Of a stretch of DNA of 29,269 nucleotides, positions 4,400 to 29,269 are shown piece by piece. Every line of letters begins with the position of its first letter. Positions within the stretch are counted from its first letter, which is position 1. Source of the stretch: a virus; IMG/VR virus record IMGVR_UViG_3300044822_000045, positions 1 through 29,269 of that record; one strand, 5' to 3'. The notes under the pieces were generated by a model. The model was given only the letters and a program-made list of their open reading frames with translations. It was not told the DNA's origin and made no database searches. A program made the position numbers and the translations under genes.

Positions 4400-5922
4400 C
4401 GGTTACTCGGGGCGAATTCGCGCACGATGGCGGCATTGACGCGGGATTGTTCGGCGGCGATCAGGCGGGCCAGGGACGCTTTGTCCTGGTCCGTGCCGTG
4501 GATGATGATGTCGGTCTTTTGCTGGAAGTTGATCGGGCTCGAGTCGAGCACGTCCTTGCTCGGGAAAGCCCGATTCTCGCCGGTGCCGTTCGGGTCCTGG
4601 TACATCTGGCGAAGCTTCGCGTGCCCGTACATCTGGTCGGAGTACTGCTTCGCGTCGTAGATCCCGGAGCCCAATTTCTCACCCAACTGCGCGAGCCAGT
4701 TGGACGGGAACATCTTGTCGAAGCCCCAGCCCAAGCCGACGCCGGCGCCGGCCACCAAGCCCGCGAGGCCTAACCGTGAGAGCACGACCGCGAGCCCGCC
4801 GAGCAAGCCGCCGCCCGCCGCCCCCGCGGCGACCGTGCCGCCGGCGGTGGTGAACATCGCGGCCGTCAATTTCGCGAACCCGCCCGCCAAGCTCAAAATG
4901 CCGGTGATGATCCCGGTCGCGCCCATGAGCTTCAGTGCCGCCGCGGCGGCCAAGAGCTTCGTGCTCCACCCGCCGGTCACGCCGTCCAAATCGACAAATT
5001 TCTCGTACAGCCAGTCAATGGCGGGCTTGACGATCTTGTAGACTTTCTCGATTTCGCCGAAGGCTTCTTTGATCCGCTTCTGGATCTCATCCCCGTGGGC
5101 ATTCACCCAGTCCAAGAGTTCGGCGAATTTCTTGATCAGCCAGTCAAAGGCGAGAACCAGATCATCGATCGCCTGCTTGCCGTGGGCGGTGGCGAGTTTG
5201 GAGAACGAGCTGAGCACGTGTTCGATGGCCGCCATCGCGGGACCTTCGAACCGCAGGAACAGCTGCTCCACCTGCATCTTCACGTCTTCCAACTGCACCT
5301 TGAATCGGTGCGCGGCTTTGGTGACCGCATCCCAGCCGCGGGTGCGTTTCTCCTGGCGCTCGAGCTCGGCCTGGAAGCCCGGGGTGGAGATCGCGAGCAT
5401 GGTGCGATCGGAGATGCCGAGCTGCCCGGCGAGCTGGTTAGCCAAGTAGCCTTGGCCATTCGCGCGCTGCTGCTGGAACAGCTTGCCGAGCGCGCCCATG
5501 AGGTCGACGCCCGAGCGTAGGTGTCCGTTGTTATCGCGGGTCGATTCCCCGACTTGTTTCAGCCATCCGCCGAGGAAGCTCTCGCCGGCGGGGTTGTTGC
5601 GCAGGAAGGCCGCAAGCCCCTCGACCGAGCCTTGCGCTTCATCGACCGAGGCGCCGAAATTGCGCGCGGCCAGGCCGTAGGCCTTCAGGCTCGAGGCGGA
5701 GCTGTTGGTGCGCTGCGAGGCGAAGTAGAGTTCCTCCAAGGAACTCGCCCAGCGCGCGACGCCGATCGAAACCGCCAGCGCGGTCGCTTCGATCTCGAGC
5801 CCGAGCTTCACCACGGATTTGGTGATGTCGGTCAAGCCCGTCTTGAATTTCTTGAGCGCGGCTTCGTCGTGCTTGTACCCAAGCGCCACGAGGAAACTTT
5901 TTATGACGGTGGACTCAGCCAT
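4396..5922 (-). CDS. Tail tape measure protein (short)
   Basis: A 508-residue protein placed just after the tail chaperone genes and before the baseplate genes, the fixed position of tape-measure genes. The first about 320 residues are mainly helical with charged heptads. A hydrophobic glycine/alanine stretch (about residues 325-405, with GATGIITGILSL, AAGAAGGGLLGGLAVV and GLVAGAGVGLGWGF) resembles the membrane-active segment of tape measures. ATG at 5922 has an AAGGA ribosome-binding site about 9-12 bases upstream. Tape measure length sets tail length; 508 residues suggests a short tail (roughly 75 nm if helical at 0.15 nm per residue). No peptidase domain is seen. Confidence 0.8.
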   Translation of the reverse strand: MAESTVIKSFLVALGYKHDEAALKKFKTGLTDITKSVVKLGLEIEATALAVSIGVARWASSLEELYFASQRTNSSASSLKAYGLAARNFGASVDEAQGSVEGLAAFLRNNPAGESFLGGWLKQVGESTRDNNGHLRSGVDLMGALGKLFQQQRANGQGYLANQLAGQLGISDRTMLAISTPGFQAELERQEKRTRGWDAVTKAAHRFKVQLEDVKMQVEQLFLRFEGPAMAAIEHVLSSFSKLATAHGKQAIDDLVLAFDWLIKKFAELLDWVNAHGDEIQKRIKEAFGEIEKVYKIVKPAIDWLYEKFVDLDGVTGGWSTKLLAAAAALKLMGATGIITGILSLAGGFAKLTAAMFTTAGGTVAAGAAGGGLLGGLAVVLSRLGLAGLVAGAGVGLGWGFDKMFPSNWLAQLGEKLGSGIYDAKQYSDQMYGHAKLRQMYQDPNGTGENRAFPSKDVLDSSPINFQQKTDIIIHGTDQDKASLARLIAAEQSRVNAAIVREFAPSNR

Positions 5923-19286: not shown

Positions 19287-19703
19287 TTAGGCGTATTCGG
19301 GTGTCTTTTGCGACCACGCGCGCAGAAAGGAGGCGACATCCCGGCGCGCATAGCGAAGCAGGTACTTCACCCGATCAATGGACAGGCCGAGCTCGTGGGC
19401 GATGGCCTCGAAAGGCTCGCACGCCACGTACAGGTGCGTGACGATGTGCCGCTCCTCGTGGGGCAGGAGAGCCACGCCCTGATCGACCGCTTCGATGTGC
19501 GAGGGCATCTCGATGGGCGCATCGCCCGATCCTGCCCCATGCACCCCGTACTTCATCATGCGCGCGATGGTCGACACGGCGCCGCTCTGGCCCGAGCGCT
19601 CAGAGGCACACCACATCGCCCAGCCCATCAAGCGCTCATGGATGTCGCGGGTTTCCGGGGCCATGGCGTTCTCGCCCCTGCGGTCGCGGATCATGGCGCT
19701 CAT
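19287..19703 (-). CDS. Q-like late antitermination protein
   Basis: A 138-residue protein from ATG 19703, with GAGGAG eight bases upstream and an ATGA overlap with the previous gene. Residues 20-52 (RDIHERLMGWAMWCASERSG) and a C-terminal HTH of sigma region 4 type (about 80-120: LLPHEERHIVTHLYV, then FEAIAHELGLSIDRVKYLLRYAR) are typical of phage Q antiterminators. These bind near the late promoter and load onto RNA polymerase. The gene is followed at once by a promoter and then a terminator before terS, supporting the role. A longer upstream frame exists but overlaps neighbouring genes. Confidence 0.72.
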   Translation of the reverse strand: MSAMIRDRRGENAMAPETRDIHERLMGWAMWCASERSGQSGAVSTIARMMKYGVHGAGSGDAPIEMPSHIEAVDQGVALLPHEERHIVTHLYVACEPFEAIAHELGLSIDRVKYLLRYARRDVASFLRAWSQKTPEYA

Positions 19704-19876
19704 CGGGATCGCTCCTCGAGTGTCTCCAGGCGAAAAGCGATATCGGCTAATTGCCCGTGATTGCCCTCGGTCGCGGCGAGAATCTCCTTGAGCAGCGCCG
19801 TCTGCATCTTCGCTTGCGCCAAGCTTTCGAGCGCGATCCGGGTGTTCTCGTCCTTGGCGACATCCACGGCCATCAT
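19700..19876 (-). CDS. Small hypothetical protein, about 58 aa
   Basis: From ATG 19876 (MMAVDVAKDENTRIALESLA), overlapping the previous stop as TGATGATG and the Q start as ATGA. It is helical, with a central amphipathic coil (QAKMQTALLKEILAATEG) and LADIAFRLETLEERSR. A TTG at 19906 is an alternative start. Coiled small proteins of this kind occur near fibre genes, but the function is not recognisable. Tight overlap on both sides supports it being translated. Confidence 0.55.
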   Translation of the reverse strand: MMAVDVAKDENTRIALESLAQAKMQTALLKEILAATEGNHGQLADIAFRLETLEERSR

Positions 19877-20031
19877 TGGGGTTCGCTCGATGGGGCGTAA
19901 ATCCAACCGATCTGCGCCCCTTGCGCGAGCACCAGCGTGAAGGTGTCGCGATTGAGATCACTCTTGCCATCCCACTCAACCAACCCGATCACAAACCCCA
20001 GGGCATCGACCATGGCGTAGAGGTGTTTCAT
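19873..20031 (-). CDS. Small WDG-type protein, 52 aa
   Basis: From ATG 20031 (MKHLYAMVDALGFVIGLVEW), or ATG 20043 with four more residues; neither has a clear ribosome-binding site. The layout V-D-x-x-G-x-V-I...V-E-W-D-G, then I-G-W-I-Y near the end, parallels the preceding gene (H-V-x-I-D...V-V-I-W-D-G...I-G-D-T-W-D-G). Such short WDG proteins are frequent just after phage fibre genes and may be fibre-tip or assembly helpers. The stop overlaps the next ATG. Confidence 0.55.
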   Translation of the reverse strand: MKHLYAMVDALGFVIGLVEWDGKSDLNRDTFTLVLAQGAQIGWIYAPSSEPQ

Positions 20032-24805: not shown

Positions 24806-25446
24806 CAGGCGAGCAGCGGGAGAGAATCCTGCTTTGGGTTGCCGCGCGCCATCGAGGCCGGGAATGGCATTTGCGCATCGGGCGAGCTCACCATCACCCG
24901 GTACTGCTCGAGCGTTTTGTGACTCACCTCCCCGATGCGCGAGAGGCCAAACAGCCAGCGGCGCACGAACTCCCTCGGCGTTGAGAGATCATCGCCCTCG
25001 AGGATGTAGCCGCAAAACTCCTGCACCAGCGCGCGCTTCATCTCGAGCACTTTGGCGAGTTCGGGCGAGGCCTCGCACTCGAGCATGCCGTGGGGCGGCA
25101 CGAAGCGGCCGGCTGATCCCAACCCGCCGCGGTTCGCGATGTGGATCAGCAGCAGCCGGTTCGCGAATTGCCCGAGGGTGTCGCGCTCGTCTTTCGGGGC
25201 CTCGGCCTGCACGTGGGTGGTGCGCGTTTGCTGCTTGTGCAAATCCCAAAGCTCATGCACGCCGGGGAATTTCTCCGGGCCCTCCTCGCTCAAGGCCCGA
25301 TCGACCACTCGCGCGAATTGCAGCAGCGACATTCTCGCCATGCCCGACCAGTACGCCTCCTCGCGTTTCTTGCCGCACGGCAGGTTGTAGCCCGCGCAGA
25401 GTTTCTCGAGCAGCGCCACAAATTCCTCCCGGTCAGTGCTGAGCAT
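24805..25446 (-). CDS. P-like replication protein (helicase-loader position)
   Basis: From ATG 25446 (MLSTDREEFVALLEKLCAGY), giving 213 residues and a 14-base overlap with the O-like gene; ATG 25500 gives 18 more. The N-terminal half (EFVALLEKLCAGYNLP, then M-A-R-M-S-L-L-Q-F-A-R-V-V-D-R-A-L) resembles phage proteins annotated as replication protein P or its analogue. These pair with an O-like initiator to recruit the host helicase. No Walker motifs are present, so it is not a DnaC-type ATPase. Identity rests mainly on gene order. Confidence 0.52.
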   Translation of the reverse strand: MLSTDREEFVALLEKLCAGYNLPCGKKREEAYWSGMARMSLLQFARVVDRALSEEGPEKFPGVHELWDLHKQQTRTTHVQAEAPKDERDTLGQFANRLLLIHIANRGGLGSAGRFVPPHGMLECEASPELAKVLEMKRALVQEFCGYILEGDDLSTPREFVRRWLFGLSRIGEVSHKTLEQYRVMVSSPDAQMPFPASMARGNPKQDSLPLLA

Positions 25447-26245
25447 CGCGCTCTCGAGCTTCGAGCTCAGCGGTGCTCGGAGCGCGCTTACTCGCCCCAT
25501 TATTGCCGCGCGGCGCCGCAAAGAGTCCCTTGTAGCCGTTCCCGATCGAGTGCTCGACCGCGGCCACTTGCGCGGCATGACCCCCGAGCTTCGCGAACTT
25601 CTCGCGCAAGCTCTCGAGGCTGTGCGGTGCGACCGGACGTCCTTCGGCCTTGCAGTACTTCAGCCATTTTGCAAACGCCCACCCACTCACAAAATCTTGC
25701 CCGGTAGTACGTAAAGATTTTGCTGGGGGTGGTAGTAATTCTTTGTTTGAGTCTGAGTATGAGTCTGAGTTTGTGTATGAGTCTGGTGTCGCTGGTGTTT
25801 GCCGGTGTCGCTGGTGTTTGCCGGTGTCGGACGGTGTCGCTGTGTTTGCCTGTGTTTGCGTCTCCTTTTGCTTGTCGCGATAGCGCTTGGTTTTTGCGGC
25901 ATTTCGCCCATCGAGGACTTGTCGGTTGCTCGCTGCCCGGTCGCGGTACTTTTGGATGTTGACGACGCGCCAGCCCCAATTGCGCGCGGGGTCGATCAAT
26001 TCCAGGCGCCGGCCCTCGAGCGCGGTTGAGCGACTGGCGGTGTCGGGTGCCATGAAGTCATCCAGGCACTTTTGCAACAGCTTCGGCGGGATGCCGATCG
26101 CCGCGGCGATGACCTGCGGCGTCTTGTCGATTTCACCGCGCGCATCGGCCATGGACAAAAGGCACCCCCACACCCCGGTGTAGGGCCAGCGACCGTAGAG
26201 GGAGCCCTCGAGCATGCTCGAGAAGAGCGGGGTGTACCCGGACAC
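25433..26245 (-). CDS. O-like phage replication initiator
   Basis: A 270-residue protein from GTG 26245. Residues 1-115 hold a winged-helix-like domain (SGYTPLFSSMLEGSLYGRWPYTGVWGCLLS, then V-I-A-A-A-I-G-I-P-P-K-L-L-Q-K-C-L), the usual start of phage replisome-organising proteins. About 125-185 is a low-complexity Thr/Gln/Ser linker. The C-terminal part (W-L-K-Y-C-K-A-E-G-R-P near 210 and I-G-N-G-Y-K-G-L-F-A-A-P) is the conserved end of these proteins. DNA under the linker is repetitive (see origin). It should bind the origin and recruit the P-like protein. Confidence 0.72.
   Translation of the reverse strand: MSGYTPLFSSMLEGSLYGRWPYTGVWGCLLSMADARGEIDKTPQVIAAAIGIPPKLLQKCLDDFMAPDTASRSTALEGRRLELIDPARNWGWRVVNIQKYRDRAASNRQVLDGRNAAKTKRYRDKQKETQTQANTATPSDTGKHQRHRQTPATPDSYTNSDSYSDSNKELLPPPAKSLRTTGQDFVSGWAFAKWLKYCKAEGRPVAPHSLESLREKFAKLGGHAAQVAAVEHSIGNGYKGLFAAPRGNNGASKRAPSTAELEARERDAQH
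25690..25860. other. Candidate replication origin with iterons inside the O-like gene
   Basis: A 9-bp inverted repeat, CAAAATCTT (25690-25698) and AAGATTTTG (25714-25722), sits in an AT-richer stretch. Next come 12-base TGAGTCTGAGT(A/T) repeats (25748-25785). Then two exact 19-base copies of GGTGTCGCTGGTGTTTGCC (25785-25803, 25804-25822) and degenerate copies to 25860. Direct repeats with adjacent AT-rich DNA inside an initiator gene match the organisation of lambda ori within O. Whether replication starts here is inference. Confidence 0.55.
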
Positions 26246-26618: not shown

Positions 26619-26936
26619 ATGGCCGCTGACCTGGAAGACCCTGCCCGACTGCTCGTCGAAGCGGCCCGCTTGCAAGCCGCCACCGCGCAACTCTTGGCCG
26701 CGACCGATGGGCGTTTGGGGCGCCTCGAAACCCACATCGAGTACATGCGCGCCGATATCGGGGAACTCAAAACCGGGCAGAAGGAACTGCGAGCAGAATT
26801 CGACAAAGTGCGCACCGAGATGCACGCGGAGTTCAAGTTCCTGCTGCGTCTGATGATCGCCATGTTCGCGACTTTGGGCACGCTCATGCTGGGACTCGCC
26901 GGCATGGTGGCGCACGGTTTCGGCTGGCTGAAATAA
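26619..26936 (+). CDS. Coiled-coil protein with C-terminal membrane segment, first of a pair
   Basis: A 105-residue protein from ATG 26619 (MAADLEDPARLLVEAARLQA). About residues 5-75 form a coiled coil (GRLGRLETHIEYMRADIGEL, KTGQKELRAEFDKVRTEM). About 78-100 (FLLRLMIAMFATLGTLMLGLAGMVA) form one membrane helix, ending GFGWLK. The next gene starts on its TAA (TAATG) and shares the opening MAAD, the H/E-F-K pattern and the C-terminal anchor, so the two are paralogues. The topology resembles Bdr-like and XhlA-like proteins. No lysis neighbours are present. A membrane-linked role such as superinfection control is speculation. Confidence 0.62.
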   Translation: MAADLEDPARLLVEAARLQAATAQLLAATDGRLGRLETHIEYMRADIGELKTGQKELRAEFDKVRTEMHAEFKFLLRLMIAMFATLGTLMLGLAGMVAHGFGWLK

Positions 26937-27307
26937 TGGCCGCTGACATCGAAGAGAACACCCGCCTACTCTCCCAGCTCGCAGACCTGCCGCCGCGGGT
27001 CGCGCGAATCGAGTCCGACGTCGAGAACATCAAGGACAACATCGCGGAGCTGAAAGGTGATGTGAAGGCGCTGCGCGGTGAGCTGCGCGGCGAGATCAAG
27101 GAGCTGCGCGGCGAGATCAAGGAGCTGCGCGGCGAGATGAGCGCCGAATTCAAATCGGTGCGCGCGGAGGCGACGGCGTTTCGCGAGGCGGTGCACACGG
27201 AATTCAAATCCGTGCGCGCGGATATGCGCTCGGACTTTCGCTGGCTCCTCGCGCTGCTGATTCCCACCTTGGGTGCATTGCTCGCCAAAGCGTTCCACTG
27301 GCTCTGA
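26936..27307 (+). CDS. Coiled-coil protein with C-terminal membrane segment, second of a pair
   Basis: A 123-residue protein (MAADIEENTRLLSQLADLPP). A long coiled coil spans about 18-98. It includes three copies of a seven-residue unit E-L-R-G-E-I/M-K/S near 49-69 and two E-F-K-S-V-R-A segments. A terminal hydrophobic helix (WLLALLIPTLGALLAKAF) follows. The first 12 bases of the gene equal those of the preceding paralogue. Bdr-type proteins share this repeat-plus-anchor layout. It would form an oligomer at the inner membrane; the function is unknown. Confidence 0.65.
   Translation: MAADIEENTRLLSQLADLPPRVARIESDVENIKDNIAELKGDVKALRGELRGEIKELRGEIKELRGEMSAEFKSVRAEATAFREAVHTEFKSVRADMRSDFRWLLALLIPTLGALLAKAFHWL
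27080..27142 (+). repeat. 21-nt tandem repeat, three units
   Basis: Units at 27080-27100, 27101-27121 and 27122-27142 read GAGCTGCGCGGCGAGATcAAG-like, the first two identical and the third diverging at its end. Each adds exactly one heptad to the coiled coil, so copy-number change would keep the frame and alter coil length. Confidence 0.85.
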
Positions 27308-27538
27308 GCGAGATCAGGGTCTTTGTGCTCTGAGCGCTGATCGAGCGGTAAGGCGAGCTGCTCGCTCACGCCGCGCACTCCGGTGAGCGCCTGGCGAGAT
27401 AGACACTCATGTGGGGCACCGACCGCGCTGCAATACGGGTATCAGCGGCGCGTGAAAATATGTTGTGCGCGAGTCCTTGCCCGTATTCGGGACGGCGGCT
27501 AACATCCCGATATGTTCAGCGCAGCACTTCACGGGTTC
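27308..27538. other. Intergenic region with one operator-like site
   Basis: No gene is credible in these 231 bases between the converging coiled-coil and repressor genes. A repressor-operator-like palindrome TGCCCG-TATT-CGGGAC lies at 27478-27493, matching the sites at 27781 and 28447 in one arm and the spacing. TTGCCC (27477-27482) and TAACAT (27500-27505) spaced by 17 bases could form a weak rightward promoter over it. A small perfect hairpin, GCGAGC-T-GCTCGC, lies near 27353 but lacks a T tract, so it is not called a terminator. Confidence 0.4.
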
Positions 27539-27769
27539 TCACGCGGCTTCAAGCTCGTCGTCGAGAAACCGGGTGAGCGCGGCACACGTCGAGATGCGCG
27601 GATCATCCGTCTCGCCATTGGCGATTTTCTTGATCGTGCCGAACGGGACGCCATCCGGATCGTCTTCGGTTTTGGTGCCCCGCACGATGTACTCCCACCA
27701 GGATTTTTGGGTAAACCCTTGCGGGATCGCGTTCAGTCGCTCGCGCAGCGTGTCGAGGTCGATGTCCAT
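27539..27769 (-). CDS. Small repressor-like HTH protein with leaderless start
   Basis: A 76-residue protein from ATG 27769 (MDIDLDTLRERLNAIPQGFT). The segment about 38-62 (G-V-P-F-G-T-I-K-K-I-A-N-G-E-T-D-D-P-R-I-S) is a Cro/CI-type helix-turn-helix, where a tight turn precedes I-x-x-I-A-x-G. It lacks a peptidase or dimerisation domain, so it is a minimal regulator. The -10 box ends six bases before the ATG, which places the RNA start on the A of ATG, a leaderless mRNA as for lambda cI from pRM. The operator in its own promoter implies autoregulation. CI versus Cro identity is unresolved. Confidence 0.62.
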   Translation of the reverse strand: MDIDLDTLRERLNAIPQGFTQKSWWEYIVRGTKTEDDPDGVPFGTIKKIANGETDDPRISTCAALTRFLDDELEAA

Positions 27770-27775
27770 AAGCCG

Positions 27776-27804
27776 AAGATAGTCCCGTATCCGGGACTCG
27801 TCAA
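27776..27804 (-). promoter_or_regulatory. Repressor promoter with embedded operator
   Basis: On the minus strand, TTGACG (27804-27799) and TATCTT (27781-27776) lie 17 bases apart. The spacer holds the 18-bp palindrome AGTCCCG-TATC-CGGGACT (plus-strand 27781-27798), so a bound repressor would block polymerase. The same design occurs at 28441-28469. Confidence 0.7.
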
Positions 27805-27843
27805 GCCCGATGCTGGGATAGCCCTTTCCCTGGTTGGCGCTTG

Positions 27844-28230
27844 ATGGCGAAGCAGACACCCCTAGAGAAGATGCTCTGGCATTTGAGGCAGGATTTATCG
27901 ACGAATTTGATGGTCGCGATTAATAATCGATTCCCCGGCACCGCCAACTGGGCCGCCGCGCTTGAGAAGGAGTCAGGCGTCAGCGATACGGTGATCCGCC
28001 GGCTCGTGAATGACCCTCACGGCCAAAAGGGCAAGTACTACTATCCGACGATTGAAACCCTGCTAAAACTAGCGAATCCGCTCGGCGTAACTGCGGAATC
28101 CTTGCTGCACAGTCCGCGCAGCAAACCCCAACCTGGCGGGGGCGGAGGTAACACGTCTGAGGTAGCACCTGCTGTAGAAACGGACGTTTCGCAAACCCCA
28201 GGACGCCCGCTCATTCACGAACCCGCCTAG
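27844..28230 (+). CDS. Cro/C1-type HTH regulator, 128 aa
   Basis: From ATG 27844 (MAKQTPLEKMLWHLRQDLST); a TTG at 27841 is adjacent. Residues about 33-58 hold a helix-turn-helix (A-N-W-A-A-A-L-E-K-E-S-G-V-S-D-T-V-I-R-R-L-V-N-D). T-I-E-T-L-L-K-L-A-N-P-L-G-V-T-A-E-S-L-L follows, the conserved end of HTH_3 domains. The C-terminus (about 92-128) is a flexible Gly/Pro/Thr tail with no S24 peptidase, so RecA-type self-cleavage is not expected. It diverges from the 76-aa repressor-like gene, and the pair forms the switch. No strong ribosome-binding site is seen. Confidence 0.68.
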   Translation: MAKQTPLEKMLWHLRQDLSTNLMVAINNRFPGTANWAAALEKESGVSDTVIRRLVNDPHGQKGKYYYPTIETLLKLANPLGVTAESLLHSPRSKPQPGGGGGNTSEVAPAVETDVSQTPGRPLIHEPA

Positions 28231-28357
28231 GAATATCCCTTAATCGCCTAATTCAGAAATGAAATATTTTTGCGACTGTGCGCTAACAGACATTGCTTTT
28301 GCACCGCGCGCGGAGTTATACCGGCCGTCCGCGGTAAGGGATATCCGCTTTTCTTAG

Positions 28358-28392
28358 AGCGCCTATCTCCCGCTAGCGGAGCAGCGCTTTTA
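28358..28392 (+). terminator. Possible terminator after the HTH gene
   Basis: AGCGC (28358-28362) pairs with GCGCT (28384-28388), an inner CTCC pairs with GGAG around a GCTAGC loop, and TTTTATT follows. The stem is imperfect (bulges), so this is tentative. The 264-base gap also holds a 10-bp inverted repeat, ATATCCCTTA (28233-28242) and TAAGGGATAT (28335-28344). Confidence 0.35.
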
Positions 28393-28407
28393 TTAAAGGG
28401 CTGCCCC

Positions 28408-28469
28408 ACTGTGAGCATTCTCACAGTCCCGTAAACGGGCTTGACTGGTCCCGTATGCGGGACTATAGT
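28408..28469 (+). promoter_or_regulatory. Strong rightward promoter with stacked operators
   Basis: TTGACT (28441-28446) and TATAGT (28464-28469) are 17 bases apart, close to the sigma70 consensus. The spacer holds GGTCCCG-TATG-CGGGACT (28447-28464). A second site, AGTCCCG-TAAA-CGGGCTT (28425-28442), covers the -35 box. Just upstream is a different perfect palindrome, ACTGTGAG-CATT-CTCACAGT (28408-28427). Start near 28476, with a short leader before ATG 28495. Repression by the regulator of the same operator at 27781 is inferred. Confidence 0.75.
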
Positions 28470-28494
28470 GGCTCCACATTCACCGGAGCCATCC

Positions 28495-28806
28495 ATGCCA
28501 CCCCCCTTCGCAACCCTCGATTCCCTCGCCCGCGCCCTCGCGCAAACCAACGCCGAGCGCCGCGCACGCCTCGATACCGCGCTGGTCCTCGCCACCGCGA
28601 ATGCCTCGCACGCCGCCGCACGCCTCGCATGGGATCTCGATGAGCGCAAGCTCGATGTGTTCGCCGGATCACCCAAAGCCCACCGCACACCGATCTTCTG
28701 CTACACCTGCCGCGCACGCTATTCGTCAGATTGCGAATGCACGGCCGATGATCTTGATGCGAGCGCCGAGGAAGGCCGCTGCTCACGATTGGGGATCGAT
28801 CCGTGA
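28495..28806 (+). CDS. Zinc-ribbon-like early protein, 103 aa
   Basis: From ATG 28495, seven bases after GGAG. The N-terminal half is alanine-rich and helical (LARALAQTNAERRARLDTAL). The C-terminal half has C69-x-x-C72 and C80-x-C82 in F-C-Y-T-C-R-A-R-Y-S-S-D-C-E-C, which could bind zinc, plus C96. It is the first gene of the rightward operon under the repressed promoter, so it is an early lytic gene. The stop overlaps the next GTG as GTGA. No known family; a host-takeover or regulatory role is only a guess. Confidence 0.6.
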   Translation: MPPPFATLDSLARALAQTNAERRARLDTALVLATANASHAAARLAWDLDERKLDVFAGSPKAHRTPIFCYTCRARYSSDCECTADDLDASAEEGRCSRLGIDP

Positions 28807-29075
28807 GCGCGCTCATCAAGCCCGTCGCCATCGCCAAAACCGAGGCCGGTCAATACACCCTGATCGCAAGCGGTGATCGGGCTCTGCCCTTTTGCTGGAT
28901 CGAGACCCACTGCGGCACCACCCGCACCATGGCGGCTTTCGTGCTCGCGAGCGATGCCATTTTGCTGCTCGCCCACTACCAGGCGCGCGAGAGCGCCGAA
29001 GCTGATCAAGTGGGTGCGCTCGAAGCTCGTCGACGGCACCGATTATGGGGCTCGAGAAGGGGGATCGATCCGTGA
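28803..29075 (+). CDS. Duplicated early protein, copy 1, 90 aa
   Basis: From GTG 28803 (MSALIKPVAIAKTEAGQYTL), overlapping the previous stop as GTGA. The first 66 residues look like a compact fold (YTLIASGDRALPFCWIETHC, then TMAAFVLASDAILLLAHYQA). The last about 24 residues in frame are Arg-rich and odd, while the +1 frame there reads KLIKWVRSKLVDGTDYGARE, which looks more natural. A frameshift near 29000 in this copy is therefore possible. It ends TGA 29075 over the GTG of copy 2. No family is recognised. Confidence 0.55.
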   Translation: MSALIKPVAIAKTEAGQYTLIASGDRALPFCWIETHCGTTRTMAAFVLASDAILLLAHYQARESAEADQVGALEARRRHRLWGSRRGIDP

Positions 29076-29269
29076 GCGCGCTCATCAAGCCCGTCGCCAT
29101 CGCCAAAACCAAGGCCGGTCAATACACCCTGATCGCAACCGCTGATCGGGCTCTGCCCTTTTGCTGGATCGAGACCCACTGCGGCACCACCCGCACCATG
29201 GCGGCTTTCGTGCTCGCGAGCGATGCCATTTTGCTGCTCGCCCACTACCAGGCGCGCGAGAGCGCCGAA
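29072..29269 (+). CDS. Duplicated early protein, copy 2 (partial, runs off the right edge)
   Basis: From GTG 29072, overlapping the stop of copy 1 as GTGA. The 66 visible residues match copy 1 except E to K in K-T-K-A-G and a change at I-A-T-A-D. The C-terminal part that would show whether this copy is the intact one is outside the window. The same unknown function as copy 1 is expected. Confidence 0.6.
   Translation, partial: MSALIKPVAIAKTKAGQYTLIATADRALPFCWIETHCGTTRTMAAFVLASDAILLLAHYQARESAE

Follow-up and report, generated by a model that had tools for sequence, protein, structure and literature searches.

A probable mirrored lambda-type immunity region built on a shared operator in a contractile-tailed phage

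A divergent pair of small genes, with the same palindrome embedded in two promoters, raises the question of whether these parts form a lysogeny switch, and of which protein would hold the lysogenic state and which the lytic one. The window, that is, the whole stretch of DNA analysed here (29,269 bases, GC 62%), is the entire IMG/VR record. Its leftward structural genes, encoding sheath, baseplate, tape measure, portal, capsid and terminase, indicate a contractile-tailed phage, and its nearest capsids are those of Bordetella phage IFTN9 (70%) and Burkholderia phage Magia (64% identical). Just before the terminase genes, a leftward protein (19287-19979) has sigma-70 region 4-like and Q-like matches and is a candidate late-gene activator. 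We conclude, with a probability of roughly 0.78, that the locus is a mirrored compact lambda-type immunity region of a temperate contractile-tailed phage, in which a CI-like protein would repress both early promoters, PR and PL, through a shared operator.

A genome-wide scan for the palindrome, the check that the initial annotation had suggested, returned four exact copies of CCCGTANNCGGG in the 29.3-kb record (at 27480, 27784, 28428 and 28450), all inside 982 bp, where shuffles and Markov simulations gave an expected count of 0.08-0.09. The strict core is some 50-fold over expectation, four CCCGN4CGGG motifs within 1 kb occurred in 0 simulations, and the symmetrised consensus of the sites is CAGTCCCGTATACGGGACTG. 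Scans for both proteins of the pair in viral and genome contigs found one relative only (IMGVR_UViG_3300044822_000103, 44,335 bp), and conservation as described here therefore rests on a pair. The sites and the two early promoters are as follows.

27478-27493, no strand: site 1, third operator TGCCCGTATTCGGGAC, which shares bases with the -35 and the spacer of the probable cI promoter; core identical in the relative
27782-27797, no strand: site 2, operator OR GTCCCGTATCCGGGAC, filling the PR spacer; kept in the relative at 4941
28426-28441, no strand: site 3, distal operator of OL GTCCCGTAAACGGGCT, abutting the PL -35 and centred at -42.5; identical 16-mer in the relative
28448-28463, no strand: site 4, proximal operator of OL GTCCCGTATGCGGGAC, in the PL spacer; exact reverse complement in the relative
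27776-27804, minus strand: PR, TTGACG-17-TATCTT, predicted early lytic promoter for cro; -10 kept in the relative, where the -35 is TTGCAG
28441-28469, plus strand: PL, TTGACT-17-TATAGT, predicted +1 at about 28476

Palindromes of this kind might arise by chance in a genome of such GC content, and a loose 3-mismatch search for the 16-mer was indeed not enriched (19 observed against 34 expected), so that significance is carried by the strict core together with position. Chance is nevertheless a vanishingly improbable explanation, which we regard as refuted because all four of these clustered sites have been kept in a diverged relative, in position and in register. A matrix built from the relative's sites only ranks the four sites of the window first, at 18.8-21.5 bits with the next match at 10.9, and found no match at the four-site level in 20 shuffles; matrices built from either genome rank the other genome's four sites first. 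The reversal of site 4 in the relative means that both symmetry-breaking bases have changed while the arms were kept. The blocks around the site-1 promoter, PR and OL/PL are 89%, 86% and 96% identical to the relative, in contrast to 45-69% for neighbouring non-coding DNA and 62% for the cI gene, and the DNA upstream of the site-1 promoter block is 48% identical. Two rightward genes in tandem (26619-26936 and 26936-27307) separate cro from the replication genes in the window and encode small coiled-coil proteins that have a hydrophobic C-terminal segment. Directly ahead of its own copy of such a gene, in a promoter-like stretch containing TATAAT, the relative has a fifth site that scores 18.6 bits; in the window the fifth site has decayed. 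Among viral contigs, 74 contain the exact 14-base operator core, with promoter context in the known relative only; a search for the promoter-plus-operator pattern likewise returned the known relative only, and the stretch 28280-28500 has no similarity to known phages.

The initial annotation had placed the operator in the spacers of a leftward and a rightward promoter, and both placements are borne out. In the former, TTGACG (27804-27799) and TATCTT (27781-27776) are 17 nt apart with GTCCCGTATCCGGGAC at 27782-27797; in the latter, TTGACT (28441-28446) and TATAGT (28464-28469) are 17 nt apart with GTCCCGTATGCGGGAC at 28448-28463. Both operators are centred at -20.5, and the return of this operator at another early promoter, beyond cI, is a feature of a lambda-type region. 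With GTCCCG-TANN-CGGGAC lying between the -35 and -10 of PR and PL alike, a bound dimer would exclude RNA polymerase. A further site had been described as covering the rightward -35; the site is present, but its core (28428-28439) stops one base short of the -35 and so abuts it. Its centre is 22 bp from that of site 4, and such an arrangement, two helical turns upstream, would be suited to cooperative binding. By sigma70-like score PL is second-best and PR third-best in the window, although these scores, which use E. coli hexamer frequencies, are usable as a ranking only. The cro ATG begins at the predicted +1 of PR (27769), which suggests that the cro mRNA is leaderless, as in phage PY54.

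The roles of the two proteins are suggested by their families and by the genes that lie behind each promoter.

27539-27769, minus strand: 76-aa Cro-like HTH protein; phrog_9425 match (E 2e-6), weak alignment to PAJU2 Cro, 83% identical in the relative
27844-28230, plus strand: 128-aa CI-like repressor; HTH domain at about residues 6-88, Gly/Pro-rich tail
25433-26245, minus strand: replication-initiation O-like gene on the Cro (PR) arm; phrog_678 match (E 2.3e-7)
28495-28806, plus strand: opening gene of the rightward operon behind PL, 103 aa; partial homologue in the relative

A divergent HTH repressor and Cro gene pair with an operator between them is what is found here, with weak family scores. 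The Pfam matches of both regulators are below cutoffs (HTH_3 for the 128-aa protein, E 3.5e-4), and a sequence search of solved structures gave a convincing match for neither. The model of the 76-aa protein is of low confidence (pLDDT 61) and no fold match was found for it; phrog_9425 is a transcriptional repressor family. The AlphaFold model of the 128-aa protein (pLDDT 71) has XRE and P22 c2 DNA-binding domains as its top Foldseek matches (probability 0.98-0.99, E about 0.1-0.3), while its tail is mostly below 50 and is probably disordered. At the C-terminus of the protein, a variable Gly/Pro linker leads into a conserved SQTPxxPLIHEPA tail. No peptidase family match, as expected of a C-terminal self-cleaving domain, was found in the 128-aa protein, and induction may therefore bypass RecA-stimulated self-cleavage.

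The initial annotation took the leftward promoter to be that of the repressor and the rightward operon to be the lytic one, a labelling that is probably wrong. It would make the 76-aa protein a self-repressing prophage repressor and the 128-aa protein a lytic regulator, and it is in keeping with the HTH-like segments in both proteins and with the spacer operator in PR, which would autoregulate the 76-aa gene. We consider this assignment unlikely, as the 76-aa protein falls in a Cro-type family and replication genes follow its gene, the position that cro has in Magia and PAJU2, whereas the modelled 128-aa protein resembles CI/c2 DNA-binding domains and is encoded between OR and OL. With the leftward gene probably Cro-like and the 128-aa gene CI-like, both promoters with a spacer operator would be lytic, comparable to lambda OR/OL.

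The arms agree with this arrangement. The Cro arm of the relative carries a primase/helicase-like ATPase, and its right arm, behind PL, exonuclease genes and an integrase; the window stops 0.8 kb into its rightward operon, and its own recombination genes and integrase are therefore out of view. Given replication genes on the Cro arm of both phages and exonucleases and integrase on the rightward arm of the relative, the gene order, replication-cro-OR-cI-OL/PL-recombination-integrase, is that of lambda, mirrored. At the right end of the window (28804-29269), the final 197 bases match a stretch lying 269 bp further upstream at 194 of 197 positions. This repeat stems either from duplication in tandem of the gene at 28803 or from assembly at the end of the contig. 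The compact lysogeny switch with a shared operator that was initially proposed is thus upheld by the conserved sites, the divergent HTH pair, the replication arm and the recombination/integrase arm of the relative.

We propose that PR drives leftward transcription of a leaderless cro mRNA and on into the replication arm, that PL drives the recombination/integration arm, and that the 128-aa CI-like protein most likely binds the operators at PR and PL, which would switch both arms off, with the 76-aa Cro-like protein probably competing for the same sites. Alternatively, the operators might be used by Cro only, with the CI-like protein acting elsewhere or by another route, in line with the greater conservation of Cro than of CI (83% against 56% identity to the relative), a pattern that the operators share. 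This seems to us quite improbable, since the region yielded no second palindrome that recurs at the promoters, and the CI-like protein keeps every residue of its presumed recognition-helix region, SGVSDTVIRRL, in the relative.

In the likely expression of the repressor the locus departs from the lambda layout. Only one operator site lies between cI and cro, where a lambda-type region would have three. Consensus scoring from OR to the cI start gave no PRM-like promoter back-to-back with PR, the best rightward score being 1.8 in the window and 5.2, with a poor spacer, in the relative. The imperfect third site reported near 27478 exists (27478-27493), and it lies in a promoter that the initial annotation had missed.

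27477-27505, plus strand: probable cI promoter (PRE-like in position), TTGCCC-17-TAACAT, antisense to cro; score 9.4, the same in both phages

This promoter is oriented antisense through cro into cI and, because no PRM-like promoter was found, it is probably the cI promoter. With an operator in a promoter that reads into cI, the repressor would limit its own synthesis. The earlier suggestion that one protein of the pair governs both itself and the lytic genes is thereby retained for lytic control, at both spacer promoters, while the site of autoregulation moves to 27478; a single repressor would probably shut off all lytic genes and also limit itself. The predicted start of the site-1 promoter falls on an ATG, as does that of PR. 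This ATG opens a 110-aa reading frame antisense to cro (27512-27844) that ends in a TGATG over the cI start and looked like a coupled leader gene. Its substitutions by codon position are 26/5/9 in the overlap, where they follow the third position of cro, and 6/8/5 between cro and cI, so that it is not under visible protein selection and was rejected.

Between cI and OL/PL, both phages have a further conserved element, preceded by a weak promoter-like sequence.

28327-28404, plus strand: conserved RNA element of two abutting stem-loops
28293-28322, plus strand: TTGCTT-18-TATACC, a weak promoter-like sequence immediately ahead of the RNA element, scoring 6.7 in the window and 7.4 in the relative

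The element is 90% identical between the phages, with one two-sided compensatory change (CTTT/AAAG to CATT/AATG), and folds at -37.3 and -38.4 kcal/mol (z -3.6 and -4.0) on the plus strand, more weakly on the other. An Rfam search gave nothing above the gathering score and there is no second copy. A terminator was considered and rejected, as no T-run follows the element in the relative. RNA-level control of rightward transcription, by antitermination or antipausing, is a first guess and is offered as a lead. The element resembles the put RNA of HK022 in outline, being about 70-80 nt long with two adjacent stem-loops near an early promoter (PMC9378689). It differs in lying upstream of PL as a single copy, whereas put is found just downstream of PL with a second copy after PR (PMC9378689).

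It is possible, though we would put it forward only tentatively, that the switch has no PRM at all, its sole cI promoter being distal, operator-bearing and directed head-on into PR through cro, with the structured RNA adding put-like or other RNA control at the PL arm. Were this so, one operator type would serve both autoregulation and the silencing of cro through transcriptional interference.

In lambda, cI and cro are divergent, PR and PL share operators, the replication arm lies behind cro and the recombination and integration genes behind PL, and an antisense promoter, PRE, lies beyond cro. The present region shares the divergent pair, the shared operators at PR and PL, the contents of the arms and the antisense promoter beyond cro. 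Unlike lambda, it is a mirror image, with OR and OL about 0.65 kb apart, one OR site instead of three, no PRM found, a CI without a peptidase domain, an operator inside the PRE-like promoter and no cII seen. The probable distal, operator-bearing cI promoter and the conserved two-hairpin RNA are departures from lambda that lend themselves to testing.

The immB region of the telomere phages PY54 and N15 likewise has a palindromic 16-bp operator and a leaderless cro, predicted here and shown experimentally, together with a leaderless cI mRNA, in PY54, where the cI promoter is also unclear (PMC4488713). In contrast, those phages have a linear-plasmid lifestyle, and in PY54 Cro has only one binding site, located upstream of cI, instead of sites at both early promoters (PMC4488713).

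The closest parallel in geometry is with Magia (NC_070954; PMC7883833), an isolated phage with a related capsid, for which the annotation gives a temperate lifestyle, a C2-like repressor and a Cro. Magia has the same cI-cro-replication order and a short repressor (114 aa). The spacer of its PR, TTGCGG-17-TAGTAT, holds an ATAAC..GGTTAT palindrome, and the predicted +1 coincides with the cro ATG; at PL there are two operators, one before a TTGACA -35 and one in the spacer. It differs in having three sites between cI and cro, with none found beyond cro, and in the form of its operator, ATAACYNNRGTTAT as opposed to CCCGTANNCGGG. Since the geometry matches and the operator sequence differs, the window appears to hold a new immunity specificity of a known architecture, defined by CCCGTANNCGGG and two candidate regulators, and the comparison suggests that operator and repressor specificities are exchanged while the promoter architecture stays fixed.
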